Assembly (NCBI GenBank): GCA_015523125.1
Contig: WAKX01000030.1
Coordinates: 1 to 34,220, forward strand
Origin: DHVE2 group archaeon
GTDB taxonomy: Archaea > Thermoplasmatota > Thermoplasmata > Thermoplasmatales > Aciduliprofundaceae
Direction of reading: 5' to 3'
DNA: 34,220 bases
Part shown: in pieces, positions 1,179 through 21,141 of the stretch
How the letters are laid out: every line of letters begins with the position of its first letter
Numbering within the stretch: the stretch's first letter is position 1
The notes under the pieces: model-generated
The model's input: the letters and a program-made list of their open reading frames with translations, nothing else
Databases searched by the model: none
What the model was told of the DNA's origin: nothing
Translations under genes and position numbers: made by a program

Positions 1179-2873
1179 ATGAGAGCTGTTGCTATAATCC
1201 TTGGGGCAATGCTCCTCTTATTGCTTTTTCCGTATTCCGCATACGCTCACACATATCATTCCATAACCTGCGATGGGAACATGGATGATTGGAGCGAGGA
1301 CGAAAGCATGGGAACCGTGAATTCCGCCACTTTTTACATAACATTTGATTTTTACAACATCTACTTTGGATTTCACAGGGGTTCTACTGACAACGATATG
1401 TTCATCGCTTTGGATGTGAAAGAGGGAGGCGCGAATAAAAGCTTAAACTGGTACGGTCAGCATGAACTTCCCTTCGATGCGGATTATTATATCGCGATAG
1501 AGAACGAGAGCTATGCGTATCTGCTAAAATACAGCAACAACAACTGGACAGAATACCGTTCGTTGAAATCGTTGGGTGGCTATATCAAGGATTGGAACGT
1601 GAATATAGAGCTTAAAATCCCCTTAAATTTAATCGGATATCCAAAAAAGGTGAATGTGATAGCATATGGGCAGTGGGAAAACGCGGTCAATGTCTGGTCG
1701 GTTTGGCCGACCACCAATCCAATGGGTAAAGGAGAGCAGAATTTCTCCAACTACATATCTCTACCAATAAAAGCTGGCATTCATCCCTCCGATTACAAAT
1801 ACGGTGTGAAATTTGCAAAGCCAAAGTTCAACATCGATGGGTACCTGACGGATTGGAGCGGGGATTCAAATCTCACCAAAATAGAGGATAGCAGCGAAGA
1901 CTCCGCCGGAGATTTGGAGAATGTGGTGGAGAACGAAGTCTACGAGCTTTACGTGACATGGGACGATAATTATCTTTACGTGGGATACGAGTACCGCACG
2001 GGTGTTTGGGGTGACAGCAAGTACGATAACGGAACTATGGTGTTCATAGACTCAGATTCACCTTGGAACGACGGAACTACGAGCTTAGACCACATGAACG
2101 TCTGGCCTCGAAAAATAGATTTTGGAAACTTCAGATGCGAATTCTTCTACGGCAAATGGGATGAGCAGAAGGGAAACTTTTACCATGTTCTAAGCGAGAA
2201 TTTCTCCCAGGACATATCCTACGACTTCATCGTGGCTACCACGGGGGGCAACGGGGTCAGAGGCGACGTTGAGATGGCAATTCCTTGGTACGTGCTTTAT
2301 GGTAAAAATTACAAAAGCGCTATGTACAACACCACCGGCGTGAAAATCTCCCTTGCGGTGGTGGGGCATGACAACGAAACGGCATTGGATACGATACCAG
2401 ATGTTGGCGATGTGACGAAGAACACCAATTGCAGCGATGAAGTTACCATAGATTACTTCTACAACACTGGAAAGATTTTCTCACCGGAACCTTTGAAAAT
2501 AGAGAATTTGACTTATAATTTCAATGGCGAAGGGGTAAATATATCGTGGGAAACTAACAGAGACGCTAATACCACCCTAACATTCGAATCAAATGGTGCA
2601 TATAAAAATTACTCCTTTGAAGCAAATAGAACTTTCATAGTAGAGATTATGGGTGTAACCAACGATACCCCGTTCAACATAACCGTGAAAGCGGAGGATA
2701 TTTACGGCAATATCGCCACGGAAGTTTTGGAGCACAAGGTAAACGAAAAGAACGAAGGAAATGAAACCAAGGAGAGCGGAGGAAAAATAGATTTGATTTA
2801 CGTATCTATCTTAGTTGCCGGAGGGATAATAATTGTTGGTGAAGTGTTAATATACAGGAGGAGAAAAAGATGA
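1179..2873 (+). CDS. Membrane-anchored surface protein with two DOMON-like (glucodextranase/CBM9-like) domains
   Basis: The 564-residue protein has a signal peptide (about 1-23, ending SAYA before HTYHS). Two DOMON-like beta domains follow, at about 24-200 and 205-430; each opens with a DG-x-x-x-DW signature (CDGNMDDW and IDGYLTDW). Next come an FN3/Ig-like stretch at about 435-525, an Asn/Glu-rich linker, and a C-terminal membrane helix (about 541-559) ending RRRKR. Such domains often bind sugars in secreted amylolytic enzymes. No catalytic motif is seen, so a glucan-binding role is inferred. The first domain is a clear paralogue of the N-terminus of the next protein. The stop overlaps the next start (ATGA), implying translational coupling. 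An AAGG element precedes the ATG by five bases. A weak A/T-rich element near 1147-1157 could be an operon promoter. Confidence 0.75.
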   Translation: MRAVAIILGAMLLLLLFPYSAYAHTYHSITCDGNMDDWSEDESMGTVNSATFYITFDFYNIYFGFHRGSTDNDMFIALDVKEGGANKSLNWYGQHELPFDADYYIAIENESYAYLLKYSNNNWTEYRSLKSLGGYIKDWNVNIELKIPLNLIGYPKKVNVIAYGQWENAVNVWSVWPTTNPMGKGEQNFSNYISLPIKAGIHPSDYKYGVKFAKPKFNIDGYLTDWSGDSNLTKIEDSSEDSAGDLENVVENEVYELYVTWDDNYLYVGYEYRTGVWGDSKYDNGTMVFIDSDSPWNDGTTSLDHMNVWPRKIDFGNFRCEFFYGKWDEQKGNFYHVLSENFSQDISYDFIVATTGGNGVRGDVEMAIPWYVLYGKNYKSAMYNTTGVKISLAVVGHDNETALDTIPDVGDVTKNTNCSDEVTIDYFYNTGKIFSPEPLKIENLTYNFNGEGVNISWETNRDANTTLTFESNGAYKNYSFEANRTFIVEIMGVTNDTPFNITVKAEDIYGNIATEVLEHKVNEKNEGNETKESGGKIDLIYVSILVAGGIIIVGEVLIYRRRKR

Positions 2874-5800
2874 AATGGTGGGTAACAGCCCTGATTTTGT
2901 TAATCATAGTTTCTGGTATTCCGTACACATCAGCTAAGACATATCACAGCATCGTTTGCGACGGGAAGCTCAACGACTGGAGTTCCGATGAATATTTGGG
3001 GGAGGATGCGTACAAAGAGGCATATCTAACATGGAATTCCACCTCGCTCTTCTTCGCGTGGAACGGAACGGCGTGGGACAATGAGGGAGATCTTTTTATT
3101 TATTTGAACACCTCCTTAGGAGGAAGCACCGCATCTTATTCCTGGAACGGCATATCTTCCCATGTGCTCCCCTTCGCAGCCGATTACTTCCTCGCAGTGG
3201 AGAAAGGTTTTGATGTGCATCTGTACTCCTGGAATTCAGATTGGAATGAAGTTAGCTACACCGGCAAAAATTATATTGGATGGAGCGGAAATAAAACAAC
3301 GGAAATCGAACTGCCTCTTAAGGATATAGGAAATCCTAAAGCGGTGGATGTTTTAATCTTTGCGCAGTGGGAATCAGAGGATCGGGTTTGGGCGTCGTTT
3401 CCAACGAACAACCCCTCCGGGAATTCGCCAAGCGTGCATTTTTACTCTTATTACCACTTCGATTTAACATCCGACGTGAGTCCAAATGACCCGTCCCATA
3501 TAATAACCATAGTTAACGAATCAAACGCTCCGAATCTTGATATAATTCACCCCATGGAAGGGGAGTTGATAAACACAACCTCATACACGATCATGGCTCG
3601 GGCCAACGATGATACCGCCGTAGATGACCTCAAAGTGCAGATTGATTCCTCTCCTCCGGAAGAAATGTACGGGTTGGGCAATGGAACATGGAAGTATCAG
3701 TGGGGCAACTACACCAAAGGGAACCATGTGATAAAGGTATACGCTTACGATGTATGCGGCAATGTGGCGATAAAAGAGGTAAACGTAACCTATGAAGGGG
3801 GGAACGGGACCAATCCAAATGCAATAAATCTTGCAATCATTTGGCACATGCATCAGCCATTATACAAAGATCTATCCACTGGGAAATATTTGGCTCCGTG
3901 GACCAGGGTGCACCTTGTACAGGAGTACGTAGACCATGCGTTTATCTTAAAAGAGCACCCGGACATGAAGGTAACAATAAATTTTGTGCCCGCTCTCCTA
4001 TACCAAATAGAGGATGTTGCCCGGGGTAATCTCACATACCGCGATGGAAAATACGTACTGGAAAACTACACCGATCCCCATTTACAATTAGCTCTTAAAA
4101 CATTAAACGGGGGAGTTGCATCCCTTTCCCAGGAAGAGAGACAGAAAATTGAAACGGAATTCTTTTGGATTGCGGACTGGATATTTCACGATAAGGATCC
4201 GTTGAATATTTATTATGCCTCCCTCGCAAATAAAGTGGATAAAGGAAAACAACTGAGCGAGCAGGAAATTTTGGATCTGGAAGTTTCTTATTTCCTGTTG
4301 CAGATTAGCAAACCCCTAATCGAGGGAAAGTACGGGAAGCAGTACATGGACTCTAAACTCTGGGGCATGCTAAATCAAAGCGGGGGATTCTCAAAAAGTG
4401 ATTTGGCATACGTGATTCAAAAGCAATTCGACATCGCCAGAATCGTACTGCCTACCTATAGAAGTATAAAAAACGCCGAGTTCACCTGCTCTCCATATTA
4501 CCATCCCATAATGCCCCTTCTTTTAATGCCGGGGTGGATTGGGCAGCAGGGTGGAGTACACGTACATAAGGGGGTATGGTATAACGATACAATCTGGCAA
4601 TTAAACGCTGGAAAGAAAGAATTTAAGGAGGTTTTTGGATATTATCCTGATGGGCTATGGCCATCAGAAGAGGCAGTTTCACAGTCCGTTATTAAACCTG
4701 TGAATCAAACAGGATTTAAATGGATGGTCTCAGATACCTATGTACTTGACAAATCCGGATACGATGTCATAGACAAGGGCAGTGATTTCATAAAGAACCC
4801 CGATTACATGTATCAGGCATACATAGCAGAGGATGAAAAGAACCATTCCTCCGTGTACATGGTGTTCCGCGACCGCGTGCTTTCGGACCGCATAGGATTC
4901 GTGTACAATCGAATGAGCGCGGAGGATGCGGTTAAAGATTTTATAAACTATGTGGAGCGCGCTGCCACGTACTTTCCGGATCCCCAGAATCACTTGGTAG
5001 TAGTGGCTTTAGATGGGGAAAACTGGATGTTCATGAACAATCCTTCCTACGAAGATAACGGTAGGGATTTCCTCAACATGCTCTACGAGAAGGTATCCGA
5101 GGATCCAAATATCAGACCGGTGACAGTGAACGAATTCTTAGAGAAGCATGGGGCCACGGGAAAAATAACTCATTTAGCCACTGGTTCATGGATGGACGGG
5201 AACTTACTCACATGGGAAGGAGAGCCTGATGAAGACACCGCTTGGAATTGGTTAGCAGAGGCAAGAAGGGAATTGGTGAATTACACGAAACTCCACGGTA
5301 ATGATTCACATGCCATGGAGGCTTGGCAATCTCTGTATCCTGCTGAAGGTTCAGATTGGTTCTGGTGGTACGGAACTGACGAAACTACGAGGGACGAACC
5401 CATGTTTGACCATCTCTTCAAGACGCACCTCATAAATGTTTACAGGGCCATAGGGGAAAATCCACCCATATACCTTACCGCTGAAATCAAAAAACCACAG
5501 AATCCGGATAGAATTGGGGGTGCATTTACCCCAAACGTTGATGGAAAGATGGAGAAAGGATGGAGTAAAGCTTTCCTGTACAACGACTCAGATACGAACG
5601 ACTCCTTTGGAATAAATCAACTCTATGTTACCTATGATCCGCAATCTCTGTACTTTTTAATCAAATTGAATAGTCCTGCTAAAAATTTCATCAACAGGGA
5701 TGTTGATCTCTCGCTGTACTTTTCCACACCGAGCCCAGAAAATATGAATCTTCCCCACATAAACTACATGCCCGTATATGGAACCACCGCCTTAGGATTT

Positions 5801-8230
5801 CCCGTAAAATACAGGGTCATGGTTTCGTTCTCTCAGGTGTTGAGCTCGGGTAAAACCACAATAGCCGTTTTCAAAGCACAGGGTGATGGGAAATGGGTAT
5901 TTACAACATCAGAGCAAACCGCAGCCATTGGAGATTACGTGGAAATAGGAATACCTCTAAATGATGTGGGGTTGAACATGGGTGAATTCGTCTATCTGGA
6001 CGCCGTTACATCTGAGGAGAGAAGCGTTGTGGATATAGCACCAAATTCTCCAGTAAAGCTTTTCATACCCTTTTTGGAAAAGAAAACTTACATTATGACG
6101 ATTCACGATAATTTGGGAGATGATAACGGGAATGGACATTATATATATCCCACCGCTGGAGACATGTGGCCCAACAAATGGCTATTCGATATAACGGAAC
6201 TTAGAATATTCAACACTTCCTACGTGCTTGGATTCGAATTCCATTTTCGCTCCATGGGAAAGGTGGTAAATGGTAAACCCATATGGAATCCGAAGTACCT
6301 GTTCTCGCAGCAGATGATAAATATATACATCGATGCTGATAGAAAAAAGGGAAGCGGAAACATAAACATGCTTGAGGGTGCTTACGCTCAAGTTCGAGAT
6401 GATTTCGCATGGGAATACGCAATTTCGGCCAGAGGATGGGACGTGTACTTAGAAAAAAGCGATGGAACAATAGTGAGGAACGGAGTGAGTGCAATAGCGG
6501 ATTTCAACGAATCAACCAAGACATGGGACAATAACACGGTCACCGTTCGTATTTCTCTGTCTCTGATAGGCCATAACTTCAGGAAATACGGATACGTTAT
6601 TGTGGTGGGTTCCCAGGACGAGTACGGTCCGGGCAAATGGAGGATAGTAAACAAAAATGTTGGTAGGTGGAACTTCGGAGGAGGCACCGACACGATTTAC
6701 GACCCGGATATAATCGACATGATCACCCCTGTGGAGGCGAATGAATCATGGATAGATTCACGAACTCAACAGGAGATTTTAGGCTCGTATAACGTTGCGG
6801 AGAAAAAATTCGCCGTGGTTCCGGGTATAGTGCTACCCGCAGGTGGAAATGGAGAGGAAAACGAGACAAATGAAACCACTCCTGTAACCAAAGGCGGTTT
6901 CCCCTCGGAAATTTACATATCTTCAGGCCTAATAATATTCGCGCTTCTACTTGTAAGCGTACATTTCCTTTGGGTTCGTACCCCAAAAGATAAGAAAAAG
7001 AAAATCGCCAAATACGGAAAAATTGGACTCGTGCTTTTCCTGATTGTCGGTTCCATCGCCCTTGTTCTATACTCCCCATCCTCATCTTCTCAGGAGGGTA
7101 AAAAAACCATAACGGTGTGGTTCACGTACACACGCGGAAGCAAAGAGTACGACACGTTCATGCGGATGATAGAAGAGTATCAAAGAATGCACCCCGATAT
7201 AGTTGTGAAAGCGGAGTGGCAGGAGTATAGTGCAGCGATAAACAAATTCATAACGCAGGCCAACGCTGGCAACCCGCCGGATGTGATTAGAATTCCTAAC
7301 GATATGATAGGCGAAGTGGCGAAGATGGGTTTCTTAGAACCGTTGGACGATTACATGGATCCAACTCTCTGGCGCTCGTACCTGCCCGAATCTCTGGACG
7401 CTATGACGTACAATGGCCATCTCTACGCCCTCCCTGCATCTTACGATTCCCTCCTCGTGATTTACAATCGAGATTTAATTAACGGAAATATAAGCAACAA
7501 TTGGACTTTGAACGATATGATTTCCATCGCCGAAAATTCTTCGGCGGAATACGGACTCGTGTTTCCAACCACCTCTTCGTATTGGTGGTTCCCGTTCCAG
7601 TACGGGTTCGGTGGGGAAATATTTCACAATGGGAAGCCGGTGGTGAACGACAACGCCTCTATATCTGCCACCAAATTTATTAAATCACTGGTTTCGAAAG
7701 GGATCATGCCCAAAACACCGGTGGATGAGCAGACAATGGTCACCTATTTCAACTCCGGAAAAGCTGCTATGATCATCGAAGGCCCATGGAAGATAAGCGA
7801 AATCCAGCTCGCGGTGCCCAACTACGGACTCGCGGTGCTTCCCAAAGCGATTAGGCCACTATCCCCTCTTATAGGATACAAGGGATACGCAATCGCAAAG
7901 GACTCTTCAAATAAAGCCCTTGCTTTCGATCTCATCAGGTTTCTCACATCAAAGGAAGTGGAGATGAATTTTGCGATGAACGCTCATACCTCGCCCACCC
8001 GCTGGGATGTTTTAGAAGATCCAAAAGTGAAGAATGACCCCATAATCAATGTGCTTAAAGATCAAGCTGCCCGAGGGCAAACTTACCCCAACGTGCCTGA
8101 GATGAGCATAGTTCAGGAGAAGGTCACCGAAGCATTGGGCAAAATTTACGAGACTGACATGCCTGTGGAAGAAGCTCTGAACATCGCGCAGGAGCAGATT
8201 GAGGAGAAGATAAGGGAGGTGAACGGGTGA
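2870..8230 (+). CDS. GH57 amylopullulanase fused through a membrane hairpin to a MalE-type solute-binding domain
   Basis: The 1786-residue order is: signal peptide (about 1-22); DOMON-like domain with CDGKLNDW; Ig-like domain (about 215-310); GH57 catalytic domain; glucodextranase-C/DOMON-like region (about 880-1330); two hydrophobic helices (about 1348-1369 and 1385-1401) around a Lys-rich loop; extracytoplasmic sugar-binding domain (about 1410-1786). GH57 marks are HMHQP (326-330), SPYYHPI, GLWPSEE with the expected nucleophile E600, LDGENW with the expected acid D715, and AEGSDWFWWYG. These fit the amylopullulanase (alpha-1,4 and alpha-1,6 hydrolysis) branch. The last domain begins TITVWFTYT and contains NPPDVIRIP, as in maltodextrin-binding proteins. 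The basic loop predicts both enzyme and binding domain outside the cell. SD sequence GGAGG precedes ATG 2870. The fusion runs in one uninterrupted frame. Confidence 0.88.
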   Translation: MKWWVTALILLIIVSGIPYTSAKTYHSIVCDGKLNDWSSDEYLGEDAYKEAYLTWNSTSLFFAWNGTAWDNEGDLFIYLNTSLGGSTASYSWNGISSHVLPFAADYFLAVEKGFDVHLYSWNSDWNEVSYTGKNYIGWSGNKTTEIELPLKDIGNPKAVDVLIFAQWESEDRVWASFPTNNPSGNSPSVHFYSYYHFDLTSDVSPNDPSHIITIVNESNAPNLDIIHPMEGELINTTSYTIMARANDDTAVDDLKVQIDSSPPEEMYGLGNGTWKYQWGNYTKGNHVIKVYAYDVCGNVAIKEVNVTYEGGNGTNPNAINLAIIWHMHQPLYKDLSTGKYLAPWTRVHLVQEYVDHAFILKEHPDMKVTINFVPALLYQIEDVARGNLTYRDGKYVLENYTDPHLQLALKTLNGGVASLSQEERQKIETEFFWIADWIFHDKDPLNIYYASLANKVDKGKQLSEQEILDLEVSYFLLQISKPLIEGKYGKQYMDSKLWGMLNQSGGFSKSDLAYVIQKQFDIARIVLPTYRSIKNAEFTCSPYYHPIMPLLLMPGWIGQQGGVHVHKGVWYNDTIWQLNAGKKEFKEVFGYYPDGLWPSEEAVSQSVIKPVNQTGFKWMVSDTYVLDKSGYDVIDKGSDFIKNPDYMYQAYIAEDEKNHSSVYMVFRDRVLSDRIGFVYNRMSAEDAVKDFINYVERAATYFPDPQNHLVVVALDGENWMFMNNPSYEDNGRDFLNMLYEKVSEDPNIRPVTVNEFLEKHGATGKITHLATGSWMDGNLLTWEGEPDEDTAWNWLAEARRELVNYTKLHGNDSHAMEAWQSLYPAEGSDWFWWYGTDETTRDEPMFDHLFKTHLINVYRAIGENPPIYLTAEIKKPQNPDRIGGAFTPNVDGKMEKGWSKAFLYNDSDTNDSFGINQLYVTYDPQSLYFLIKLNSPAKNFINRDVDLSLYFSTPSPENMNLPHINYMPVYGTTALGFPVKYRVMVSFSQVLSSGKTTIAVFKAQGDGKWVFTTSEQTAAIGDYVEIGIPLNDVGLNMGEFVYLDAVTSEERSVVDIAPNSPVKLFIPFLEKKTYIMTIHDNLGDDNGNGHYIYPTAGDMWPNKWLFDITELRIFNTSYVLGFEFHFRSMGKVVNGKPIWNPKYLFSQQMINIYIDADRKKGSGNINMLEGAYAQVRDDFAWEYAISARGWDVYLEKSDGTIVRNGVSAIADFNESTKTWDNNTVTVRISLSLIGHNFRKYGYVIVVGSQDEYGPGKWRIVNKNVGRWNFGGGTDTIYDPDIIDMITPVEANESWIDSRTQQEILGSYNVAEKKFAVVPGIVLPAGGNGEENETNETTPVTKGGFPSEIYISSGLIIFALLLVSVHFLWVRTPKDKKKKIAKYGKIGLVLFLIVGSIALVLYSPSSSSQEGKKTITVWFTYTRGSKEYDTFMRMIEEYQRMHPDIVVKAEWQEYSAAINKFITQANAGNPPDVIRIPNDMIGEVAKMGFLEPLDDYMDPTLWRSYLPESLDAMTYNGHLYALPASYDSLLVIYNRDLINGNISNNWTLNDMISIAENSSAEYGLVFPTTSSYWWFPFQYGFGGEIFHNGKPVVNDNASISATKFIKSLVSKGIMPKTPVDEQTMVTYFNSGKAAMIIEGPWKISEIQLAVPNYGLAVLPKAIRPLSPLIGYKGYAIAKDSSNKALAFDLIRFLTSKEVEMNFAMNAHTSPTRWDVLEDPKVKNDPIINVLKDQAARGQTYPNVPEMSIVQEKVTEALGKIYETDMPVEEALNIAQEQIEEKIREVNG

Positions 8231-11097
8231 AACTCAAAATATTCGCGGCGCTTCTTCTCTTTGCTTTGCTGCTTCCAGGGGTAATGGGTAATATAGTGGA
8301 CATTCATGCAACATCGGCCACTGTAGAGTGGAAAACAACCGGCGCGCAGCGGTACGATGTGTATTTGAAAAATTCCACTACCAATTTCTCTCTGTATGAT
8401 TCCGTATATGTGGGGAATGCCACGGGTTACGAAGTGAGATTCGTTGAGTATTTCTCAGACTCATGGCACTACGCCCGGTGGGAAGGCCGCTGGATAGTGA
8501 TTCCGAACAACGCCACGAAGATCCGCTACTCCCTAGGAGGATTGCAGGAGAACACAAAATACGAGGTGCGCGTAGTTGCCAATGGTAAAATCGTTGAGGA
8601 AGATTCGTTTACCACGCTCATAAGGGGAAGCGAGGCAAAAAAGAATCCTACGGCAGTTTATCTGAGCATAGCGACCATCGCCGCAATTATGCTCCTTGCT
8701 CTTTTCATAATCTCTCGAAAAGATCCGCGGGATGCCAGAAGCGCCTATCTTTACATTCTTCCAGCTCTATTGGGTCTTGCATTGGTTAGCTTTTATCCCG
8801 TGATTTACGGCTTTTACCTATCTTTCACGGATTACCGCATGGGGCACGATTTTTCGGCGCATTTCGTAGGATTGCAAAACTATGTGAACATATTCACCAA
8901 CCCGGATTTCTATTTAGTTCTGAACACAACGGTCATATGGACTATCGCAAATGTGTCAGCGCATGTTCTCATTGGCTTAGCCCTCGCTCTCGTTCTCTAC
9001 GGGAAGAGGAGGGGGAAAAGTATATACAGAACCCTTCTGCTGCTACCGTGGGCCATACCTGCGTACATATCGATTCTGGTATGGCGCGGTATGTTTGATG
9101 CAAACTACGGGCTCATAAATAGAGCTTTAGGTCTTGGAATAAATTGGCTCGGCGAGTTCCCGTACGCGTTCATCGCAGTTCTCATCACGAACATCTGGCT
9201 GGGGTTCCCGTTCATGATGATGATGTTCTTAGGGGGATTGCAGGGGATACCGAAGGAATTATACGAAGCCGCAGACATAGATGGATTCACCCGCTGGCAG
9301 AAGTTCAGGCACATAACACTTCCCATGCTGAAGCCCGTGATAACCCCCGCCGTTTTGATGGGTTTTATATGGACGTTCAACATGTTCAACGTCATTTATC
9401 TCATGACCGGCGGCGGGCCTCAGGCCGCGGGACGATTTTCTGCGGGACAAACCGATCTGCTTATCACTTTCGTGTACAACAAAGCATTTCGAGATTGGAT
9501 GTTCGGGTATGCCGCCGCGTACTCAGTGGTGATTTTCCTCATAATACTAGCCTTCAGTGTCAGTTACTCTAAGTTCACAGCATCTGTGAACAGCGAAATG
9601 AGAAGGGAAAGGAGATTTAGACTCAACAAGAAAAACGCACTTAGCGTGGCTTTCTCACTGTATGCGCTGGTATACGCTCTTTCATTCGCGGGAGTAATTT
9701 CACTCCCCATAAAAGAGCCGGCCACATACCTCCTATTCTTCCTGTTCATCGTTGCAATATTCGCGACCAGAAAGAACTACCGAGAAGCGTACCTTTATCT
9801 CACCCTCGTACTCTTCATTGATTTCGCCCTCGCGGTATATTATTGGCTCCTCACAGACATAAGGGCGTACGGGTTCTACGGATTCAATTTGCTTTCACTA
9901 TTGGACATCTTCCTTCTGCTCTATTTCTTCACCTCAAACATCAAAGAGGAATTCGGGGGAAGGGCGATCAAATTCGAAATAAGAAGGGAATTCATAAAGG
10001 CGGAGAATCCGTGGTACCCCATAATATTGGCACTCATAGCAATCGCATTCGCCATCGTTTACAGGGGGATTTACGGAATTGTGTTAGCCTCCTCGGCCAT
10101 AATTTTCCTCGCATATCTATTTCTTCCCAGAGATGAATTGCCCATGCTTGCATCGGCAATTATAGCAACTTCCAGCGTATTTTTCTCGACATACTACGGA
10201 AATTTCATTCTATCTATTCCCCTTATCATCTTCGTCCCATCGACGCTTTTGGAAGAAAAGAAAGCGATGAAATACGTGGAGTACCTAGCCACATGGGGAT
10301 TCCTTTATGGGATGCTCTTCATAATAATCGTGCCAGTGTGGTACATGTTCTGGATATCTGTAAATCCAACCAACACCCTTTTCTCGCCGAATTTGTCTTT
10401 GCTTCCCGCCGGAGCCACGTTTAATAACTACATTTATGCGATTCAGAAAACTCCTTTCCTCCTCTGGCTCAGGAACAGCTTAATCGTTGCGGGAGGAACA
10501 ACCATTCTGGGAATTGTGCTTGCTGTCACCGCCGCCTACGGTTATTCCCGCTTTGATTTTCACGGAAAGAACTCGACGCTCATGCTCTTCCTCGTCGTTC
10601 AGATGTTCCCCGGAGTGATAGTGCTCATCCCCTACTATTTGATAATGTACAACCTCGGCTTGGTGGATACTTTCATAGGGTTGATAATCGCTTACGCGGT
10701 TACGGCGATTCCCCTCATCGTTTGGATGTCAAAGGGATTCTTCGATTCAATCCCGAAATCCATAGATGAGGCCGCTATGATTGACGGCTGTTCCCGCTTC
10801 TCCGCATTCATGCGCGTCGTTCTCCCGCTTGCGACTCCGGGAATTTCCGTGGCCGCTCTATTCTCATTCATAACCGCGTGGAACGAGTTCGTTCTCGCCT
10901 ATACGTTCATGGGCGAGGAGCATTACACCTTGCCAGTTGGGATTATGCAGTTCGTTGGATTAACGGGAACCACGAGCTCCCAGTGGGGCGTGTTCGCTGC
11001 AGTATCCATCATGGTTTCCATACCTGTGGTGCTCGTATTCCTCTCCCTGCAGAGGTACCTCATATCTGGAATGACCTCAGGAAGTGTGAAAGGGTGA
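8227..11097 (+). CDS. Fused maltodextrin ABC permease (MalF-MalG single chain) with extracellular FN3-like domain
   Basis: This 956-residue protein carries both membrane subunits of a carbohydrate ABC importer. A signal peptide (1-21) is followed by an FN3-like domain (about 22-134; TSATVEWKT, NTKYEVRV), a helix at about 143-163, and a MalF unit with the ATPase-coupling EAA loop from residue 347 (EAADIDGFTRW...LP). After R459 lie about 225 residues with roughly eight extra hydrophobic segments. A MalG unit starts near 684, with its EAA loop from residue 848 (EAAMIDGCSRF...LP). The GTG start overlaps the preceding TGA, and GGAGGTG lies five bases upstream. It should pair with the tethered binding domain of the previous protein and with MalK of the next gene. 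Normal MalF and MalG are separate proteins. Transport of maltodextrins is inferred from context. Confidence 0.9.
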   Translation: MKLKIFAALLLFALLLPGVMGNIVDIHATSATVEWKTTGAQRYDVYLKNSTTNFSLYDSVYVGNATGYEVRFVEYFSDSWHYARWEGRWIVIPNNATKIRYSLGGLQENTKYEVRVVANGKIVEEDSFTTLIRGSEAKKNPTAVYLSIATIAAIMLLALFIISRKDPRDARSAYLYILPALLGLALVSFYPVIYGFYLSFTDYRMGHDFSAHFVGLQNYVNIFTNPDFYLVLNTTVIWTIANVSAHVLIGLALALVLYGKRRGKSIYRTLLLLPWAIPAYISILVWRGMFDANYGLINRALGLGINWLGEFPYAFIAVLITNIWLGFPFMMMMFLGGLQGIPKELYEAADIDGFTRWQKFRHITLPMLKPVITPAVLMGFIWTFNMFNVIYLMTGGGPQAAGRFSAGQTDLLITFVYNKAFRDWMFGYAAAYSVVIFLIILAFSVSYSKFTASVNSEMRRERRFRLNKKNALSVAFSLYALVYALSFAGVISLPIKEPATYLLFFLFIVAIFATRKNYREAYLYLTLVLFIDFALAVYYWLLTDIRAYGFYGFNLLSLLDIFLLLYFFTSNIKEEFGGRAIKFEIRREFIKAENPWYPIILALIAIAFAIVYRGIYGIVLASSAIIFLAYLFLPRDELPMLASAIIATSSVFFSTYYGNFILSIPLIIFVPSTLLEEKKAMKYVEYLATWGFLYGMLFIIIVPVWYMFWISVNPTNTLFSPNLSLLPAGATFNNYIYAIQKTPFLLWLRNSLIVAGGTTILGIVLAVTAAYGYSRFDFHGKNSTLMLFLVVQMFPGVIVLIPYYLIMYNLGLVDTFIGLIIAYAVTAIPLIVWMSKGFFDSIPKSIDEAAMIDGCSRFSAFMRVVLPLATPGISVAALFSFITAWNEFVLAYTFMGEEHYTLPVGIMQFVGLTGTTSSQWGVFAAVSIMVSIPVVLVFLSLQRYLISGMTSGSVKG

Positions 11098-11101
11098 TAG
11101 A

Positions 11102-12196
11102 ATGAGAGTGAAATTTGAAAATGTAAGCAAAAAATTCGGAGAATTCGAAGCGGTCAAAGACCTTAATTTCGAAATAGAGGATGGAGAGTTCTTCGTCATA
11201 CTCGGGCCATCTGGAAGCGGCAAGACAACGACTTTAAGAATGATCGCAGGTCTGGAGAAGCCAACTTCGGGAAGGATTTACATAGGGGAAAGAGATGTGA
11301 CAAACTTAGCTCCGAAGGATCGAAATATAGCCATGGTTTTCCAAAATTACGCGCTCTATCCGCACATGACCGTTTACGACAACATGGCCTTTGCACTGAA
11401 ATTAAAAAAGAGGGGATTCAGAAGAGTCTATACGAAGGATGAGATAGATGAAAGAGTCCATAAAGCTGCGAAGATGCTCCACATAGAAGAGCAATTGGAG
11501 AAGAAGCCCGCGCAGCTGAGCGGCGGGCAGAGGCAACGTGTCGCTTTAGGTCGCGCTTTGGTAAGAAATCCCAGCGTTTTCCTATTCGACGAGCCGCTTA
11601 GCAATTTGGATGCGAAGCTGCGAGCGGAGATGCGCGTGGAACTGAAGAGAATACATCAGGAACTGAAGGTCACGATGGTTTACGTCACGCATGACCAGTT
11701 AGAAGCCATGACACTGGGAGACAGGATAATGGTCTTAAATCGCGGAGAAATAATGCAGATGGACGAGCCAATGGCCATGTACCACAATCCTCGTAATCTC
11801 TTTGTGGCCACGTTCATAGGGAGTCCCGAGATGAACATACTGGACTGCGAAATAAAAGAAGATATGCTGGATTTCGGAGATTTTGCGCTTAATATTCCTG
11901 AAGAGCTTAAAGAAAAGTTAAAAGAGCACATTGTCTCCAAAGTCAAATTCGGAATTCGTCCGGAGGATGTGATGGACTCGCTGTTCGTAGAGAACAAGGA
12001 AGAGCAGAGAATTCGGGTGAAGGTGGACGTCATTGAGCCCTTGGGCTCCGAGATACACGCGCATTTGAAGATTGGAGAGCATGAAATATTGGCGAGATTT
12101 CCGCCGGTTGTGAAGGTAAGACCCGGGGAAGAGATGGACGTGGTTTTCAACATGAAGAGAATTCACCTGTTTCGAGATGGGGAGGCGATACTGTGA
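11102..12196 (+). CDS. malK: Maltodextrin ABC transporter ATPase
   Basis: The 364-residue CUT1-type ATPase energises the importer from the cytoplasmic face. Walker A GPSGSGKTT is at residues 35-43, the Q-loop in QNYALYPHM, the signature LSGGQ at 139-143, Walker B in FLFDEP, the D-loop as SNLD and the switch His in VTHDQ. A C-terminal TOBE/regulatory domain of about 120 residues is present, so length is normal for MalK/UgpC. It starts four bases after the permease stop. One ATPase gene with two EAA loops in one permease suggests a MalK dimer bound to the single-chain permease. The sugar could differ (trehalose, other oligosaccharides), but the amylopullulanase fusion in the operon favours maltodextrins. 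Confidence 0.93.
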   Translation: MRVKFENVSKKFGEFEAVKDLNFEIEDGEFFVILGPSGSGKTTTLRMIAGLEKPTSGRIYIGERDVTNLAPKDRNIAMVFQNYALYPHMTVYDNMAFALKLKKRGFRRVYTKDEIDERVHKAAKMLHIEEQLEKKPAQLSGGQRQRVALGRALVRNPSVFLFDEPLSNLDAKLRAEMRVELKRIHQELKVTMVYVTHDQLEAMTLGDRIMVLNRGEIMQMDEPMAMYHNPRNLFVATFIGSPEMNILDCEIKEDMLDFGDFALNIPEELKEKLKEHIVSKVKFGIRPEDVMDSLFVENKEEQRIRVKVDVIEPLGSEIHAHLKIGEHEILARFPPVVKVRPGEEMDVVFNMKRIHLFRDGEAIL

Positions 12197-13314
12197 AAGT
12201 GACCATGATGAGTTTGGAATATCCGCCAAATGTTTACGGCGGGGTAGGAGTGCACATAAAAAATCTGGTGAAGCATCTTTCCAAATATGTGGAAGTGGAG
12301 ATAAGAACCCTCAACGCAAACAGGGAAAACGATGTGAAAGAATACGAGCCATGGGAAATTTTCGATGGAAAATATCAATGGGATAGGGTATTGAGCACAT
12401 TGTCTCTGAATCTTGCGATGGTTAGGGATCCTGTGGATGCGGATATAATTCACACACATACGTGGTATGCGAACTTAGCCGGCTTCATGGCAAAGAAGTT
12501 AAACGGAAAGAAGTTGGTGAGCACCGTTCATAGCTTAGAGCCCCTGAGGCCGTGGAAGAGGGAGCAGATAGGAAACGGGTACGAGCTGAGCGTCTGGATG
12601 GAGAAAACGGGGCTGGAGAATTCCGATAAGATCATAGCGGTCTCGAAGGGTATGAAAGAGGACATAATGCGGGTATACGATATTCCGAAAGAAAAGATAA
12701 ATGTGATTTACAACGGCATAGACGTGGACAAATTCAAAAAAACCGAAAATAGAGAGGTTTTGGACGAATTGGGCCTCGACGAAAATTATGTTTTATTCGT
12801 GGGGAGAATGACGAGGCAAAAGGGCATAGACACGCTCATCGAAGCTTCGAAGTACATTGACGGAAAAATAGTTATTGTGACGGGCAAAGAAGATAGCGAA
12901 GAAACTTACGAGCACTACAGAAACCTTTTAATGGGGGAGAAGAACATAATCTGGTTCCACCGCTATTTTTCCTTGGATTCCCTTGTTCAATTGTACTCCC
13001 ATGCCGCAGTTTTCGTGACTCCGTCCATATACGAGCCCTTCGGCATAATTAACTTAGAAGCGCTGGCATGCGGCACGCCCGTGGTTGCATCTGCGGTTGG
13101 GGGAATAAAGGAGATCGTGCAGGACGGCGTGAACGGCTTCTTGGTTGAGCCCAAAAACGCGCAACAGCTGGCGGAGAAAGTTAACTTATTGCTAAAAGAC
13201 GATGACCTGCGAAAAGAAATGGGCAAAAACGGCAGAAGAAGGGCGGAAGAGTTCTCATGGGAGCGCATCGCAAAGCAAACTTACGAGCTCTACAGGGGGC
13301 TTTTGAATGATTGA
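12193..13314 (+). CDS. glgM: GT4 glycosyltransferase of the GlgM (maltose-1-phosphate synthase) type
   Basis: The 373-residue GT-B enzyme begins with a GGVGVHI nucleotide-sugar loop. It carries HTHTWYANLAG and HSLEPLRPWK, which I recognise as hallmarks of the actinobacterial GlgA/GlgM family rather than of classical GlgA (usually longer) or archaeal trehalose synthase TreT. Donor-site residues are R205 and K210 in GRMTRQKG, and the E-x7-E pair is E281/E289. GlgM makes alpha-maltose-1-phosphate from a nucleotide-activated glucose and glucose-1-phosphate and can extend glucans. The GTG start overlaps the malK TGA (GTGA), and the stop overlaps the next gene by eight bases. The kinase next door makes the same product in known systems, which strengthens the call. 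Donor (ADP- or UDP-glucose) and exact acceptor are not decided by sequence. Confidence 0.75.
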   Translation: MKVTMMSLEYPPNVYGGVGVHIKNLVKHLSKYVEVEIRTLNANRENDVKEYEPWEIFDGKYQWDRVLSTLSLNLAMVRDPVDADIIHTHTWYANLAGFMAKKLNGKKLVSTVHSLEPLRPWKREQIGNGYELSVWMEKTGLENSDKIIAVSKGMKEDIMRVYDIPKEKINVIYNGIDVDKFKKTENREVLDELGLDENYVLFVGRMTRQKGIDTLIEASKYIDGKIVIVTGKEDSEETYEHYRNLLMGEKNIIWFHRYFSLDSLVQLYSHAAVFVTPSIYEPFGIINLEALACGTPVVASAVGGIKEIVQDGVNGFLVEPKNAQQLAEKVNLLLKDDDLRKEMGKNGRRRAEEFSWERIAKQTYELYRGLLND

Positions 13315-14335
13315 GGACTGCACGAAGATAGGAGATTTGGAATTGATAATAAAAGGTGAAGAATTCGAAATGAAATATAAGGGAAGAGATGCCTTCGAAT
13401 CAGAGGAGGGCCTAAAAGCTATGCTCTCCCTCTATAAAATTGGAGAAATCGAGACGAAAAACGGGAAAAAATTCGAATTTTACGGAGATGTCGATGATAA
13501 TTTTGATAAGATGGAACGACTGGGGTACAGCACAAATAATGTGATCGCAACCGAGAGCGTGGTGGTGAAATCATACAGGAATTTGGGTAATAGAGAGCCC
13601 GAACTTTTACAGCTATTGGGAGAAGTAGCTCCTCGTGTGTTGGGCTACGGGCTCTACAACGGCAAATACATCCAAATAATCACCAAGAGATTCAACGGAG
13701 AGGATGTGGGAAAGATAATCTGGGAGAACAGGCAGAAATATCTGCGGGGAGAGGAGTGGAAAGATGATTTTGATGAAATTCTGTTTCAAATAGCGCAGAC
13801 GGTTAGAAAGATGCATGAAATCCTGAGGAAATTGGGAGAAGAGCGCGTGAAAAAAGAGGACGTTGAAAGGTGGTTAGCTAATACGATGAGCCTCGCAGAA
13901 AGCGCTGGATTGAAATTGAAGAACCACAACCAGCTATTCAGTTCGCAGGTAGATAAAGAAAAAATTGAAATTCATGGAGACCTGCATTTTGGCCAGATGA
14001 TCCTTCACCACGGGAAAATCATCATAACTGATTTTGAAGGAGAGCCTCTATACCGAAAATCCGAAAAACTGCCGCCAATAAGGGACATAGCCACGCTGGC
14101 GAGGGCTCTGGGGTACATATCTCGCGGAGAATGGGACGAGTGGGAAAAACACGGAATAGAAAAGATATACGAGTTCTACGGGTCTCAAATTTTCACCAAA
14201 AGGGAATACTATGAGTGGATGCTCGAAAGGGCTCTCTACGAAGTGAATTACGAGATGAAATACAGAAAAGAGAATGTGGATATTCCGCTCAAGGGTGCGA
14301 AGCGAATTGGAAATTTGCTGGAGGTGTTGGATTGA
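13307..14335 (+). CDS. Maltokinase-like sugar kinase
   Basis: The 342-residue protein has the aminoglycoside-phosphotransferase-like kinase fold. The catalytic loop is HGDLHFGQM (H223, D225) and the metal-binding motif ITDFEGEP (D242), followed by PPIRDIATLARAL. The HGDLHxGQ...DFEGEP...RD combination is typical of actinobacterial maltokinase (Mak/Pep2), which forms maltose-1-phosphate from maltose and ATP. The length is shorter than bacterial Mak (about 450 residues) and the N-terminal cap is reduced. ATG 13307 lies eight bases inside glgM. The position behind a maltodextrin importer and beside GlgM supports a maltose or short-glucan substrate. A different sugar or a glycosyl-glycerate is possible. 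Confidence 0.72.
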   Translation: MIEDCTKIGDLELIIKGEEFEMKYKGRDAFESEEGLKAMLSLYKIGEIETKNGKKFEFYGDVDDNFDKMERLGYSTNNVIATESVVVKSYRNLGNREPELLQLLGEVAPRVLGYGLYNGKYIQIITKRFNGEDVGKIIWENRQKYLRGEEWKDDFDEILFQIAQTVRKMHEILRKLGEERVKKEDVERWLANTMSLAESAGLKLKNHNQLFSSQVDKEKIEIHGDLHFGQMILHHGKIIITDFEGEPLYRKSEKLPPIRDIATLARALGYISRGEWDEWEKHGIEKIYEFYGSQIFTKREYYEWMLERALYEVNYEMKYRKENVDIPLKGAKRIGNLLEVLD

Positions 14336-17300
14336 GAGCTACGATAGCAATAATCTTGGTAGCTATGCTTCTCATGGTTTCGCTCCCGCAGGTTCATGAC
14401 CATAATAATTTGATTTCAAATTCTAGGAACGTAGGCGACGATGCAACCGAAGGAATAAAAATCGACGGGAAGTTCAGGGATTGGAATCTCAACGATGTGA
14501 AAGCGGTGGATAACTATGGAGATGAATATAGATTCAACGACGGGTACGACGATTCCCGCGATATTATAGCGTTCTACTATCGCTATGAAAGTTCCACTTT
14601 ATTTTTCAGAGTGGATTTTCTAAACCTGCAATATGCGGCAGAAGTTGGGAACATGGACTTGTACATTGCTATAAATTACTCATCAGGCGGACAAAATTGG
14701 CTTCCAGATTATGTGGAAACTCAAACGGATACGCCGTGGGAGATATGCTTAGCCATATATGACACATCCCACTACGCCGTTTACCTCTCAAACTGGAGCT
14801 ATGGAAACTGGAGCATCGAGGGAATAAAATACAACTCTCAGGTGGATGCTGTGGAGCTCGCATTGAATTCTTCTATACTCCAGCAGAATGGATGGGACGG
14901 CTCAGTCCCCACATTTCAGGTTTACACCACCCGAGATGGCACGAACGGAGGTCCCGGGGAAATATCTCCTGGAACGTACAACACACCTGAGAGCGATATA
15001 GTGGACGCAATAGGCTCCTCAATATACAGGGGGAACGGCAATAGCACAGGATGGCTCAACGGGAGCATACCCTCTTCCTCGCACATAACTCCCACAAAGA
15101 TTGCATTTTTGCACCACGCCAATCAATTCCTGAAGAACATATCCTACTTTGTCGGGGATAATAATGTGGGCATGTACGCGGTTCCGAGCATACACGAGTA
15201 CTGGCATGTGCCCGTTAATTTGCATATTTCCGGCACGCTCGCGGACGGAATCGAATATTATCGTCCGGATTTCAATCGATATCTCAGAAAACTCGCAGAT
15301 GAGGGGATAGCACACATGGTCGGTGGATTTTACGCAGAGTATATTCCCAAATATCTCCCGAGGGAGTTCAACAACTGGAGCATGGAGGAGGCAAAGGAAT
15401 ACAACGAGAAATACTACAACTACACCCCGCAGGTTTGTTGGATTCCCGAGCGAGTTTTCTGGCATGGATGGGATAGAACGGTTAAGGATGGAGGTTACAA
15501 AATAGTGGTTGCCGACACGGAAGTTGCATTTAACTGGTACCATCCATCATGGGCATCAGAGGGGAAGGATGAGTACTACGTGTGGAACGACTCTGGGGTG
15601 AAGGTGCTCTTCATCAGCAATACCGGCCGCGCTGGGAACTGGCAGAATATACAGGACATGCTTCCAAACCCAACGGATGGCGGTTTAAATGAGAATATAA
15701 GAAAATTACTCGTGAGAAATGAAATCGAGGATGCTGCTAACAGGTACATCCTCTACATGGACGATTGGGAGAAGTTCTTCGGCAACGCGCCGGGCTGGGG
15801 CGGGCCCGAAGTAGTTACAAATTATAACGAGAGCATAGGGTGGATAGCACAGCATCCATGGATTCACGTGGCCTCGCTGGAAGAGCTCGCAAATCTACCG
15901 GTGCATGGGAATATAACCATCGGAGACGCCTCGTACTTCTGGCTCACCCAGAATTTAGGCACCGCGGGCAGCGATTCCACCGGTCCAAATGATTCCTACG
16001 ATTTATACGACGCGTGGTATTACGACCCTTACCACGAGATAACCGTCGGCGTGCCTTATTTCAATTATACTCCCGTGGATAACATCGAAAAACTGGGTGA
16101 CTATGAAACTCCCCATACCGTTATCCACGATGTGTGGGAGAACATAAGCAAAATACCTGAATCCTCGCCCATATATGATGTTGCAATGAAATCCTTCGCA
16201 GCCATGATGTACGAGACCGCGTGGAGGGGAAAGGGGATAAGCATAACAATGCACGATGACATCTCCGACTGGGAGAAGGATCAGGCCTCACATATTAAAG
16301 ATGTGAATATCTTCCACTTTGCTCAGAAATGGTTGGACAATCCCCATGCAGGGATATGGAAAGAAGATGTGAACATGGACGGCCTTAAAGATATTGTATT
16401 TTCAAACGGCACATTGTTTGGAGTTGTATCGACAAGGGGTGGAAAAATCACCTTCCTCATGGACTCACGGGGAAGAATTCTCATAGGAAATCCCGTGGTA
16501 GGATGGCACACACAGGGCTCGGATTTCACGGACATCGTTGGCATAGCAACTTCGAATTATCACTACGAAGACAACCCTGTGCCGTATAACTTAGGCTCGA
16601 AGAGCTACGCTTTTGAAGAAATAGGATACGAGAACTCGCTTTACAATTTGAGCATGGATGGAAGCAGGATTATTGCAAATATTGGGAACATTACGAAGAC
16701 ATACTCGATAACAGCAAAGGGCATAATTGTGAATTATTCAACCCCCGATACAATCGGAGTGAGAATTACAGCCTCTCCAAACTTCAAGAATTTGACATCT
16801 TTGGAATTCGTGGCGAATAAAAGTGTAAGGGGAATAAAAAATGGCGTAGATGGGTTGTGTGCATGGGTTGCCGCCACCAACGCTTCGTTCTACTTGGAGA
16901 AGAGAGAAACAATGTCAGGGTACATGGTATACTACGGAGATGGAAATTTTTCATTTGTGTTGCAATTCTCCTCGAAAGGATACGAGAATCTCCCTCCGTG
17001 GCAGATAAAGCAATTACCCGTGCTGAGAGTTCCCGAGGATGGAAAAAGGGTGAATATGATCAATCTCAGCGAATTTTTCCGCGATGATATTTCTAAAAAT
17101 TTGAAATTTATTTTGAAATACAACGACTCTTCCGGTGTGTACGTTACAATGAACGGCACATGGGTGAGCGTTGATGCTAACACCGGAGAGAAAAATAACA
17201 ATTGGAACGGCTGGATAAACGTAACAGTTATAGCCATGGATGGAGAAGGAGCAAAAACGGATACGATTCTGCGAGTGTATATTTATCCTGTGGATGATCC

Positions 17301-17700
17301 GCCGAGCATATACGTATCTATCAAAAACAACGAAACGATAAGCAGGGATTGTATCATAACAATATCAGCAAAGGACATCGACAGTCCCAGCGTGAGCATT
17401 TGGTACTCAATAGATAGTGGAAATTTGGTCAAAGGAAACAAGGTAAAGTTGGATGTTCACAAGTTAGGCGATGGAAAACATACACTAATGGTAAAGGCCA
17501 GCGATGGAAACCTGAGTACTTACGAGAACATAACGTTCTACGTGGAGACTCCAAAATATTACACCATTCCTGCGATAGCTTCTTCTTTGATAATATTTGT
17601 CGCGCTGGTATCTGTGTGGGTATACAAAAAGAAAAAAAGATTAGCGAGTTCTCCGCAAGAACACGGGAGCAATAAGAACGAGGAAAACGGGCAGAATTAG
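14332..17700 (+). CDS. Secreted membrane-anchored GH57 glycosidase with DOMON-like and Ig-like domains
   Basis: I place the start at TTG 14332: it overlaps the kinase TGA, is preceded by GGAGGTG with five bases spacing, and opens directly on a signal peptide (RATIAIILVAMLLMV). The 1122-residue product has a DOMON-like domain opening with IDGKFRDW (about 45-210) and a GH57 domain (about 240-560). HHANQ replaces the usual HxHQP. CWIPERVFW contains the expected nucleophile E373, and YMDDWEKF the expected acid D478 (or D477). This pattern is nearest the 4-alpha-glucanotransferase/alpha-amylase branch of GH57. A second beta-rich region, two Ig/cadherin-like domains (about 890-1070), a membrane helix (about 1079-1096) and a hydrophilic tail follow. 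Exact activity is not decided. Its last 60 bases are also the 3' end of the convergent gene. Confidence 0.8.
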   Translation: MRATIAIILVAMLLMVSLPQVHDHNNLISNSRNVGDDATEGIKIDGKFRDWNLNDVKAVDNYGDEYRFNDGYDDSRDIIAFYYRYESSTLFFRVDFLNLQYAAEVGNMDLYIAINYSSGGQNWLPDYVETQTDTPWEICLAIYDTSHYAVYLSNWSYGNWSIEGIKYNSQVDAVELALNSSILQQNGWDGSVPTFQVYTTRDGTNGGPGEISPGTYNTPESDIVDAIGSSIYRGNGNSTGWLNGSIPSSSHITPTKIAFLHHANQFLKNISYFVGDNNVGMYAVPSIHEYWHVPVNLHISGTLADGIEYYRPDFNRYLRKLADEGIAHMVGGFYAEYIPKYLPREFNNWSMEEAKEYNEKYYNYTPQVCWIPERVFWHGWDRTVKDGGYKIVVADTEVAFNWYHPSWASEGKDEYYVWNDSGVKVLFISNTGRAGNWQNIQDMLPNPTDGGLNENIRKLLVRNEIEDAANRYILYMDDWEKFFGNAPGWGGPEVVTNYNESIGWIAQHPWIHVASLEELANLPVHGNITIGDASYFWLTQNLGTAGSDSTGPNDSYDLYDAWYYDPYHEITVGVPYFNYTPVDNIEKLGDYETPHTVIHDVWENISKIPESSPIYDVAMKSFAAMMYETAWRGKGISITMHDDISDWEKDQASHIKDVNIFHFAQKWLDNPHAGIWKEDVNMDGLKDIVFSNGTLFGVVSTRGGKITFLMDSRGRILIGNPVVGWHTQGSDFTDIVGIATSNYHYEDNPVPYNLGSKSYAFEEIGYENSLYNLSMDGSRIIANIGNITKTYSITAKGIIVNYSTPDTIGVRITASPNFKNLTSLEFVANKSVRGIKNGVDGLCAWVAATNASFYLEKRETMSGYMVYYGDGNFSFVLQFSSKGYENLPPWQIKQLPVLRVPEDGKRVNMINLSEFFRDDISKNLKFILKYNDSSGVYVTMNGTWVSVDANTGEKNNNWNGWINVTVIAMDGEGAKTDTILRVYIYPVDDPPSIYVSIKNNETISRDCIITISAKDIDSPSVSIWYSIDSGNLVKGNKVKLDVHKLGDGKHTLMVKASDGNLSTYENITFYVETPKYYTIPAIASSLIIFVALVSVWVYKKKKRLASSPQEHGSNKNEENGQN

Positions 17701-18699
17701 GGCGTTGAACTCAGGGACAAAGTTTCCATCGCTTACATCGCCAGATGAATCAAAGGTAACGGTGATGTAATCATTGACCTCGCCGTCCTGAACCTCGTCC
17801 CATGTGTTGGGCCCTGTGGTAGTTATGCAATCAAGAGCAAATCCACCACTCGAGGTACTCCACACATTTCCGCTATCTTTGCTATAATCGCTGTAACCTC
17901 TGGCAGTTATCACCGATATTCGCAGAGTTGGCTGATCAGACGGATTCAATCCTATTACACTCCACGCGAGTCTTATTTCGATTGTGTTATTTGTCAGATT
18001 CACCGCCATAAGCCCGTGCTGACCGGTATCTCCGGTGTAATCTACGAATTTCCAAGTATTGTTTATCACGTAGAATATGGAGCCCCAGTTCGCCGTGGAC
18101 TCGTTAAGCGGATATTCGGTGAAGTTCAATCCTTTGCCTGCGTATCGAGAATCAGCAAGGTTCACAACTATCTGATATTCCCATGCAGCGCTGGAATTCA
18201 CCGTTGTGTTAGAATTACCAGCAAACCATGTCTCTCCGCCAGATGTGCCGTTGTCTATGGCGATGGCCATCCATGTGGCCCCATTGTCACCAAGGTGGAA
18301 ACTGCTCATGTTCTTGAACTCAGCCAAGAAATATATATACGAGGAATCCCCGGTTATTCTGAATTCAGTGAGATCAACGCGCTCGTCAGGATTTCCGCCG
18401 TTGAAGTCGTTTCGCTCATCATTCATGGAATCGTTCCACACGTATTCACCGTTGCTTATCGCATAAGAATTAGCCGTGTTAGGCAAGGTTCCGGTCCAGT
18501 CGCTGGAATTTGCATCCACAGAAATGGTATGCCTAGTGGCTGTGTGATGCGGCGCCATCGTGATGATTCCCGCAACCCCGGAGAGGAGAAGAACCATCGC
18601 GATGCCCACAATAACCGCGTACTTTGCGTGTCCCTTTTTTCTTACCTCTATTCTCTTTGGTTTCAAACTCACATCCCTCCTAGTGTTTTTGGCATCCAT
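17641..18699 (-). CDS. DOMON-like surface protein with PEF-CTERM-like anchor
   Basis: The 352-residue protein has a basic N-terminus, a membrane helix (about 27-47), one DOMON-like domain (about 56-315; VDANSSDW opening, Asn/Thr/Ser-rich) and a C-terminal 25-residue tail: VPEFNAL, a hydrophobic helix, then RRTR. This tripartite tail matches PEF-CTERM sorting signals cut by archaeosortases. ATG 18699 is 25 bases from a perfect TTTAAATA, so a leaderless start is likely. An internal AGGAGGG (18675-18681) eight bases before TTG 18666 marks a possible second start (341 residues). Role is inferred: exposed glucan-binding partner of the enzymes encoded convergently. The 3' end overlaps the GH57 gene by 60 bases. 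Confidence 0.75.
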   Translation of the reverse strand: MDAKNTRRDVSLKPKRIEVRKKGHAKYAVIVGIAMVLLLSGVAGIITMAPHHTATRHTISVDANSSDWTGTLPNTANSYAISNGEYVWNDSMNDERNDFNGGNPDERVDLTEFRITGDSSYIYFLAEFKNMSSFHLGDNGATWMAIAIDNGTSGGETWFAGNSNTTVNSSAAWEYQIVVNLADSRYAGKGLNFTEYPLNESTANWGSIFYVINNTWKFVDYTGDTGQHGLMAVNLTNNTIEIRLAWSVIGLNPSDQPTLRISVITARGYSDYSKDSGNVWSTSSGGFALDCITTTGPNTWDEVQDGEVNDYITVTFDSSGDVSDGNFVPEFNALILPVFLVLIAPVFLRRTR

Positions 18700-18719
18700 G
18701 ACCCTCAAAATGCAGCCAA

Positions 18720-18727
18720 TATTTAAA
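18720..18727 (-). promoter_or_regulatory. TATA box of the 352-residue surface-protein gene
   Basis: TTTAAATA on the minus strand is an exact archaeal TATA consensus. It is centred about 25 bases before ATG 18699, which implies transcription starting at or next to the start codon. Confidence 0.65.
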
Positions 18728-18785
18728 AACTTTTTGCATTTTTCAAAAATTTTCAAAAAAAGAAATTGGGAAATAATTGAAAATT

Positions 18786-21029: not shown

Positions 21030-21071
21030 AGCCATTACCTCCTTATTACGGGGAAAAGTAATGGGTTGGCC

Positions 21072-21080
21072 AAATATAAA
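21072..21080 (-). promoter_or_regulatory. TATA box for the 747-residue surface-protein gene
   Basis: TTTATATTT on the minus strand predicts transcription from about 21051. That gives a leader of about 22 bases containing AGGAGGT (21037-21043), which fits an SD-led start at 21029. Confidence 0.6.
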
Positions 21081-21112
21081 CTTTACTATGATACAAATCC
21101 CCAAAATCAAGT

Positions 21113-21120
21113 TTTTTATA
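21113..21120 (+). promoter_or_regulatory. TATA box for the nucleotidyltransferase gene
   Basis: TTTTTATA is centred about 25 bases before ATG 21142 and no SD sequence intervenes, so the transcript is probably leaderless. It is back to back with the promoter of the surface-protein gene. Confidence 0.6.
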
Positions 21121-21141
21121 GCATTTTTCATTACTCCAACC

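Follow-up and report, generated by a model that had tools for sequence, protein, structure and literature searches.

A long-standing question in polysaccharide use is whether the coupling of an external depolymerase to an uptake receptor pays by limiting public-goods loss. A gene of a DHVE2 group archaeon raises this question, as its reading frame joins an amylopullulanase to a solute-binding protein (SBP). Does a single polypeptide both cut starch outside the cell and capture the products for import? The window, the whole stretch of DNA analyzed here, comprises 34,220 nucleotides of contig WAKX01000030.1. The reading favored here, and considered probable, is that one membrane-anchored protein performs both extracellular steps of starch use and originated from the merger of two adjacent overlapping genes. 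The amylopullulanase half would cut starch at the cell surface, and the SBP half, kept beside the enzyme by a two-helix hairpin, would catch the released maltodextrins and hand them to a MalFG-MalK2 importer, whose genes are the next two in the operon. The components of this model that we infer are the topology, the activity, the sugar specificity, the direction of fusion, the integrity of the chain, and the benefit of proximity or fixed stoichiometry.

The gene forms a single frame with an ATG start, 1786 codons, and no internal stops, and encodes a chain of 1786 residues (~202 kDa). The modules are arranged in the order of signal peptide, carbohydrate-binding-like module, Ig module, GH57 domain, Glucodextran_C, two-helix membrane hairpin, and MalE-type SBP. 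Residues 1340-1410, where a stop or frameshift would have separated the two halves, were read through and the frame is unbroken. The features of the gene are as follows.

2870..8230, + strand: fused amylopullulanase-SBP gene (ORF and Pfam; intact in two further metagenome-assembled genomes, MAGs)
2870..2938, + strand: predicted signal peptide, residues 1-23, MKWWVTALILLIIVSGIPYTSAK (hydropathy maximum at 1-19)
2939..3514, + strand: N-terminal carbohydrate-binding-like module, residues 24-215 (homology to parts of the ORFs at 1179-2873 and 18786-21305(-))
3530..3739, + strand: Ig-like module Big_7, residues 221-290 (Pfam)
3833..5161, + strand: GH57 catalytic domain, Pfam span 322-764 (resemblance to solved GH57 enzymes extends to ~853)
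4667..4669, + strand: E600, catalytic nucleophile position (motif GLWPSEEAV; role per PMC6037648)
5012..5014, + strand: D715, catalytic acid position (motif ALDGENW; role per PMC6037648)
5342..5368, + strand: CSR-5, AEGSDWFWW, residues 825-833 (double-Trp ending as in amylopullulanases; PMC6037648)
6092..6820, + strand: Glucodextran_C module, residues 1075-1317 (Pfam)
6911..6967, + strand: TM1, residues 1348-1366 (hydropathy; aligns with the anchor at the C-terminus of the separate amylopullulanase)
6968..7021, + strand: basic loop, net charge +7, predicted to be cytoplasmic; the fusion junction (alignment with unfused relatives; charge count)
7022..7078, + strand: TM2, residues 1385-1403 (hydropathy; aligns with the signal anchor at the N-terminus of the separate SBP)
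7106..8227, + strand: MalE-type solute-binding domain, residues 1413-1786 (Pfam, closest solved structures, AlphaFold, Foldseek)

The Pfam matches to GH57, Glucodextran_C, and the SBP families, all in this one chain, lie far above their cut-offs. GH57 is matched at residues 322-764 with an E-value of 4e-52 (177.8 bits against a cut-off of 21.2) and Glucodextran_C at 1075-1317 with 1e-47; by sequence, the solved structures nearest to residues 321-853 are GH57 enzymes. In this family, the glutamate of CSR-3 is the nucleophile and the aspartate of CSR-4 is the acid (PMC6037648), and both are present in the fused chain as E600 (LWPSEE) and D715 (LDGENW). CSR-5 closes with WW, and two terminal tryptophans at this position are a fingerprint of amylopullulanases, with exceptions (PMC6037648). 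Taken on domain score, catalytic residues, and the CSR-5 ending, the enzyme half is a predicted GH57 amylopullulanase. The N-terminal module shares 36% and 34% identity with the ORFs at 1179-2873 and 18786-21305(-) (E-values of 5e-31 and 3e-16), and may bind carbohydrate.

The second half is matched by SBP_bac_8 at residues 1433-1726 (E-value 1e-38, 134.2 bits against a cut-off of 27) and by SBP_bac_1 at 1426-1698 (4e-36, 125.9 bits against 26). The NCBIfam MalE equivalog model NF007011 scores 133.5 bits, below its curated cut-off of 291, so that the domain is MalE-like and not an equivalog by this model. The solved structures nearest in sequence to residues 1415-1782 are maltose/maltodextrin-binding proteins. 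AlphaFold2, run on residues 1341-1786 with 18 related sequences, returned a mean pLDDT of 88, with two lobes in the SBP part (~83-98 per 10-residue block) and the hairpin modeled as two helices at lower confidence (~61-70). The top Foldseek matches of the SBP model are again maltodextrin-binding proteins (2zyk, TM(target) 0.91; 2zyn, 0.90; E-value 1e-32). The original prediction had placed a GH57 amylopullulanase with E600 and D715 and a full MalE-type binding domain in one polypeptide; the ORF, the domain scores, the catalytic motifs, and the confident binding-protein fold obtained after residue 1410 bear this out. Among 13 binding-site positions of Escherichia coli MBP, four are identical (K15, D65, Y155, W230) and one is conservatively replaced (E111 to D), while the changed positions include W62, E153, and W340; this partial match weighs against the favored model. 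Maltodextrin is the likely ligand as judged from these comparisons.

The genes flanking the fusion supply the context for its binding domain.

1179..2873, + strand: membrane-anchored surface protein, 564 aa (its N-terminal module resembles the one in the fused protein; 4-bp overlap with the fused gene)
8227..11097, + strand: MalF and MalG fused, 956 aa; signal sequence, Fn3-like domain, and TM at the N-terminus (BPD_transp_1 matched twice; MalF and MalG profiles; EAA loops in both halves)
11102..12196, + strand: MalK-type ATPase (Pfam/NCBIfam profile matches)

The hallmarks of a MalEFGK2-type importer are present: both permease halves retain EAA loops, the ATPase is of the MalK type, and the MalFG gene overlaps the fused enzyme-SBP gene by 4 bp. 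An AlphaFold model of the fused MalF-MalG, built with five sequences, was discarded for its low quality (mean pLDDT 39). None of the three fusion-bearing genomes has a PF13416 protein other than the fused SBP. The two other PF01547 proteins of the window's genome resemble, by inspection, tungstate/molybdate-type binders, one of them beside its permease, and a second carbohydrate-type SBP was not detected in this MAG, which is 95% complete and could be missing one. The fused SBP is most likely the one on which the importer relies, since it is the only carbohydrate-type SBP detected and MalFG and MalK are encoded directly downstream. The same observations, together with an unfused orthologue that occupies the same operon position in relatives, speak against the reading in which the C-terminal domain has lost its role in import and is instead a sensor or a supplementary module by which the enzyme binds starch or dextrin. 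The partly changed MBP-type pocket and the other binding-type modules of the enzyme would fit such a role, which is nevertheless quite improbable.

How the two halves are held together depends on the hairpin. The hydrophobic segments of the chain lie at residues 1-19, 1348-1366, and 1385-1403, with no other long ones, and the loop between TM1 and TM2, LWVRTPKDKKKKIAKYGK, has 18 residues and a net charge of +7, in agreement with the membrane hairpin with a basic inner loop that had been predicted. The signal peptide and the positive-inside rule would place both ectodomains outside the cell, which supports the earlier claim that enzyme and receptor are both extracellular. The ectodomains are linked solely via the hairpin, with a tether of roughly 10 residues following TM2, and this arrangement supports the co-anchoring of enzyme and SBP at a fixed 1:1 stoichiometry. 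The original prediction went further and spoke of substrate channeling; the chain implies proximity only, and no tunnel or ordered transfer between enzyme and SBP is evident from the sequence. SBPs are usually in excess over the transporter, and such excess is restricted when each SBP is tied 1:1 to a large enzyme, which counts against the favored model.

The window derives from a MAG, and an error of sequencing or assembly that joined two genes therefore has to be considered. The same intact fusion is present on contigs JALWEL010000201.1 (98% identity) and JAADDK010000019.1 (75%), from MAGs of the same DHVE2 genus. Relative to the 75% relative, synonymous differences are saturated (pS 0.70-0.87) and the frame is intact over the junction; an artefact is accordingly improbable in the extreme. 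A MAG chimera is ruled out by the three contigs with the fusion. Compared with the most distant fused relative, the hairpin region (1361-1415) contains no gaps, all modules of the gene are under purifying selection, and dN is 0.18 for the SBP and 0.13 for GH57. Of the eight genomes of the genus, three carry the fusion; the system is absent from the other five, some of which are incomplete, and this absence from most of the genus counts against the favored model. None of this kind is present in 10 other genomes of the family. No enzyme-SBP fusion was found outside the genus among ~650 Thermoplasmatota genomes, with a search for relatives that covered the class; other phyla were covered for close relatives, by a peptide-pattern scan of 84,980 species' genomes whose short patterns, taken from one sequence, reach only that far. 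No plasmid-borne copies were found. The enzyme-SBP fusion, carried by a few deep-sea-vent archaea, is rare and conserved, and sits inside an otherwise familiar starch-uptake operon.

The origin of the fusion can be traced in two genomes (G267 and G270) of Thermoplasmatota family f11, which belongs to the same class but another family. Here, the same operon runs amylopullulanase (1462/1441 aa), SBP (410 aa), fused MalFG (900 aa), and MalK, with enzyme and SBP as two ORFs that overlap by 4 bp (ATGA). Gene order and membrane anchors are shared with the window at ~48% and ~44% identity, whereas the enzyme and SBP are separate and the enzyme carries ~45 extra C-terminal cytoplasmic residues. In the alignment, the unfused enzyme ends with a TM segment, basic residues, and this tail, and the unfused SBP begins with a signal anchor; the fused chain is without the tail, and the C-terminal anchor of the enzyme abuts the N-terminal anchor of the SBP. 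By eye, the tail is SHOCT-like in loci L063 and L064, with no Pfam match. In the enzyme gene tree, the fused and f11 unfused forms group with support of 95/93 under a midpoint root, with a tool warning that the join involves long branches. The two-gene arrangement would represent the state before fusion, and the direction would be fusion rather than fission. Two adjacent overlapping genes may have merged in frame, such that the anchor of the enzyme, minus its cytoplasmic tail, was joined to that of the SBP. As both anchors already existed, the origin of the fusion would be simple, and an anchor-to-anchor join would leave the topology of either ectodomain unchanged. The enzymes in other families of the window's order are more distant than those of f11, a hint that the operon may have been transferred horizontally. 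The MalF-MalG one-chain fusion also occurs in f11 (L063, L064) and is for this reason probably older than the enzyme-SBP fusion.

The same origin lends itself to a second interpretation, which shares the architecture of the favored model and differs in why the fusion persists. The fusion may have been fixed by chance between parts that were already co-anchored and co-expressed, with the halves working as before and no kinetic benefit. The junction of two existing anchors, the overlap of the partner genes, the confinement to one genus, and the other fusions (MalF-MalG and SBP-MalF) in the same operon type of relatives all agree with it. That the fused frame outlasted synonymous saturation weighs on the other side, though persistence by itself is no proof of benefit. 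Fixation without benefit is a serious possibility, somewhat short of an even one.

A cut by a protease or signal peptidase after TM2 would count against the favored model, as the chain would then be a precursor of an ordinary separate enzyme and an anchored SBP. Archaeal signal peptidases could act after TM2, where the fused protein of L065 has an Ala-x-Ala-like stretch, YAAPPATAKGK, and an unfused relative has AFATQTSG. The window and the third fused locus, L066, have SPSSSSQEG at this position, without Ala-x-Ala, and no cleavage motif is common to the three fused proteins; such processing is unlikely. An internal translation restart that would yield a separate SBP is not indicated either: ATG is absent from the hairpin region of the window's gene, and the three fused genes share no start codon at a common position there. 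A start at GTG 1416, preceded by GGAGG in the window, was rejected, as L065 does not preserve it and its product would be without the membrane anchor.

The favored model, an uncut and anchored enzyme-receptor chain, can be set beside several described systems. In the mdx cluster of Thermococcales, the amylopullulanase gene typically separates malK from the rest of the transporter genes (PMC2246101, PMC10667668), as in the Pyrococcus furiosus cluster with PF1938-1936 and PF1933 (PMC2246101) and the MD system of Thermococcus barophilus (PMC10667668). A GH57 amylopullulanase, a MalE-type SBP, MalF, MalG, and MalK are likewise clustered in the window, and external starch cleavage with maltodextrin import, which the mdx systems perform, is predicted here from the genes. 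In contrast, enzyme, SBP, MalF, and MalG are separate genes in Thermococcales, consistent with the earlier statement that enzyme and binding protein are normally separate, and are combined here into an enzyme-SBP and a MalF-MalG chain. GlnPQ and OpuA also contain SBPs within larger membrane-anchored chains of fixed stoichiometry, but these are joined to the membrane domain of the transporter, where the fusion described here has an enzyme that cuts polysaccharide outside the cell. A Bdellovibrio protein deposited as 'transport permease homologue', the source of the MalE domain in PDB 6ffl, is to judge from that name probably another SBP linked to a permease. In the same operon type of another member of Thermoplasmatota (L068:3735-6386, 883 aa), the SBP is also fused to a neighbor in one ORF, but to the downstream permease MalF rather than the upstream enzyme. 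SBP-bearing frames of ~830-945 aa occur in ~25 other genomes (families f34/f42), several with a lipobox-like N-terminus, and would be fusions of the same kind. The original prediction knew of no described system of this form, and the literature searched likewise yielded no fusion of an SBP with an enzyme that cuts polysaccharides.

The fusion is genetic evidence that the GH57 amylopullulanase and the SBP act together, and these operons show an importer condensing via repeated fusion within one phylum. A more far-reaching proposal is that three chains (enzyme-SBP, MalF-MalG, and MalK) make up a machine for starch uptake, in which the cutter is permanently attached to the receptor and products are caught before they diffuse away. 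This proposal is tentative and on balance doubtful; if true, the machine would be a natural, physically coupled cleavage-and-import complex. The natural fusion and its unfused sister operon form a ready-made comparison.

The neighborhood of the operon contains further genes of related function. A GlgA-like glycosyltransferase (12193-13314) adjoins a gene (13307-14335) with no Pfam match, a weak similarity to maltokinase/TreS C-terminal models (NCBIfam), and the kinase-like HGDLHFGQM...DFEGEP, which is possibly an archaeal maltokinase. A second GH57-type protein (14215-17700) has a signal sequence and a C-terminal TM, and its motifs WIPERVFW and DDWEKFFG point to an active enzyme of the alpha-amylase type; translation of this frame probably begins further downstream than 14215, still within the end of the preceding gene. 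A GalT-like protein is also encoded, and the locus may constitute an island for alpha-glucan uptake and storage. A promoter scan with the bacterial sigma-70 pattern gave no useful information, which is unsurprising in an archaeon. The N-terminal module of the fused enzyme, which belongs to no Pfam family, is shared by the membrane-anchored surface proteins encoded at 1179-2873 and 18786-21305 (-), and a further one at 17641-18789 (-) has a weak Glucodextran_C match; the three are possibly a family of surface glucan-binding proteins.
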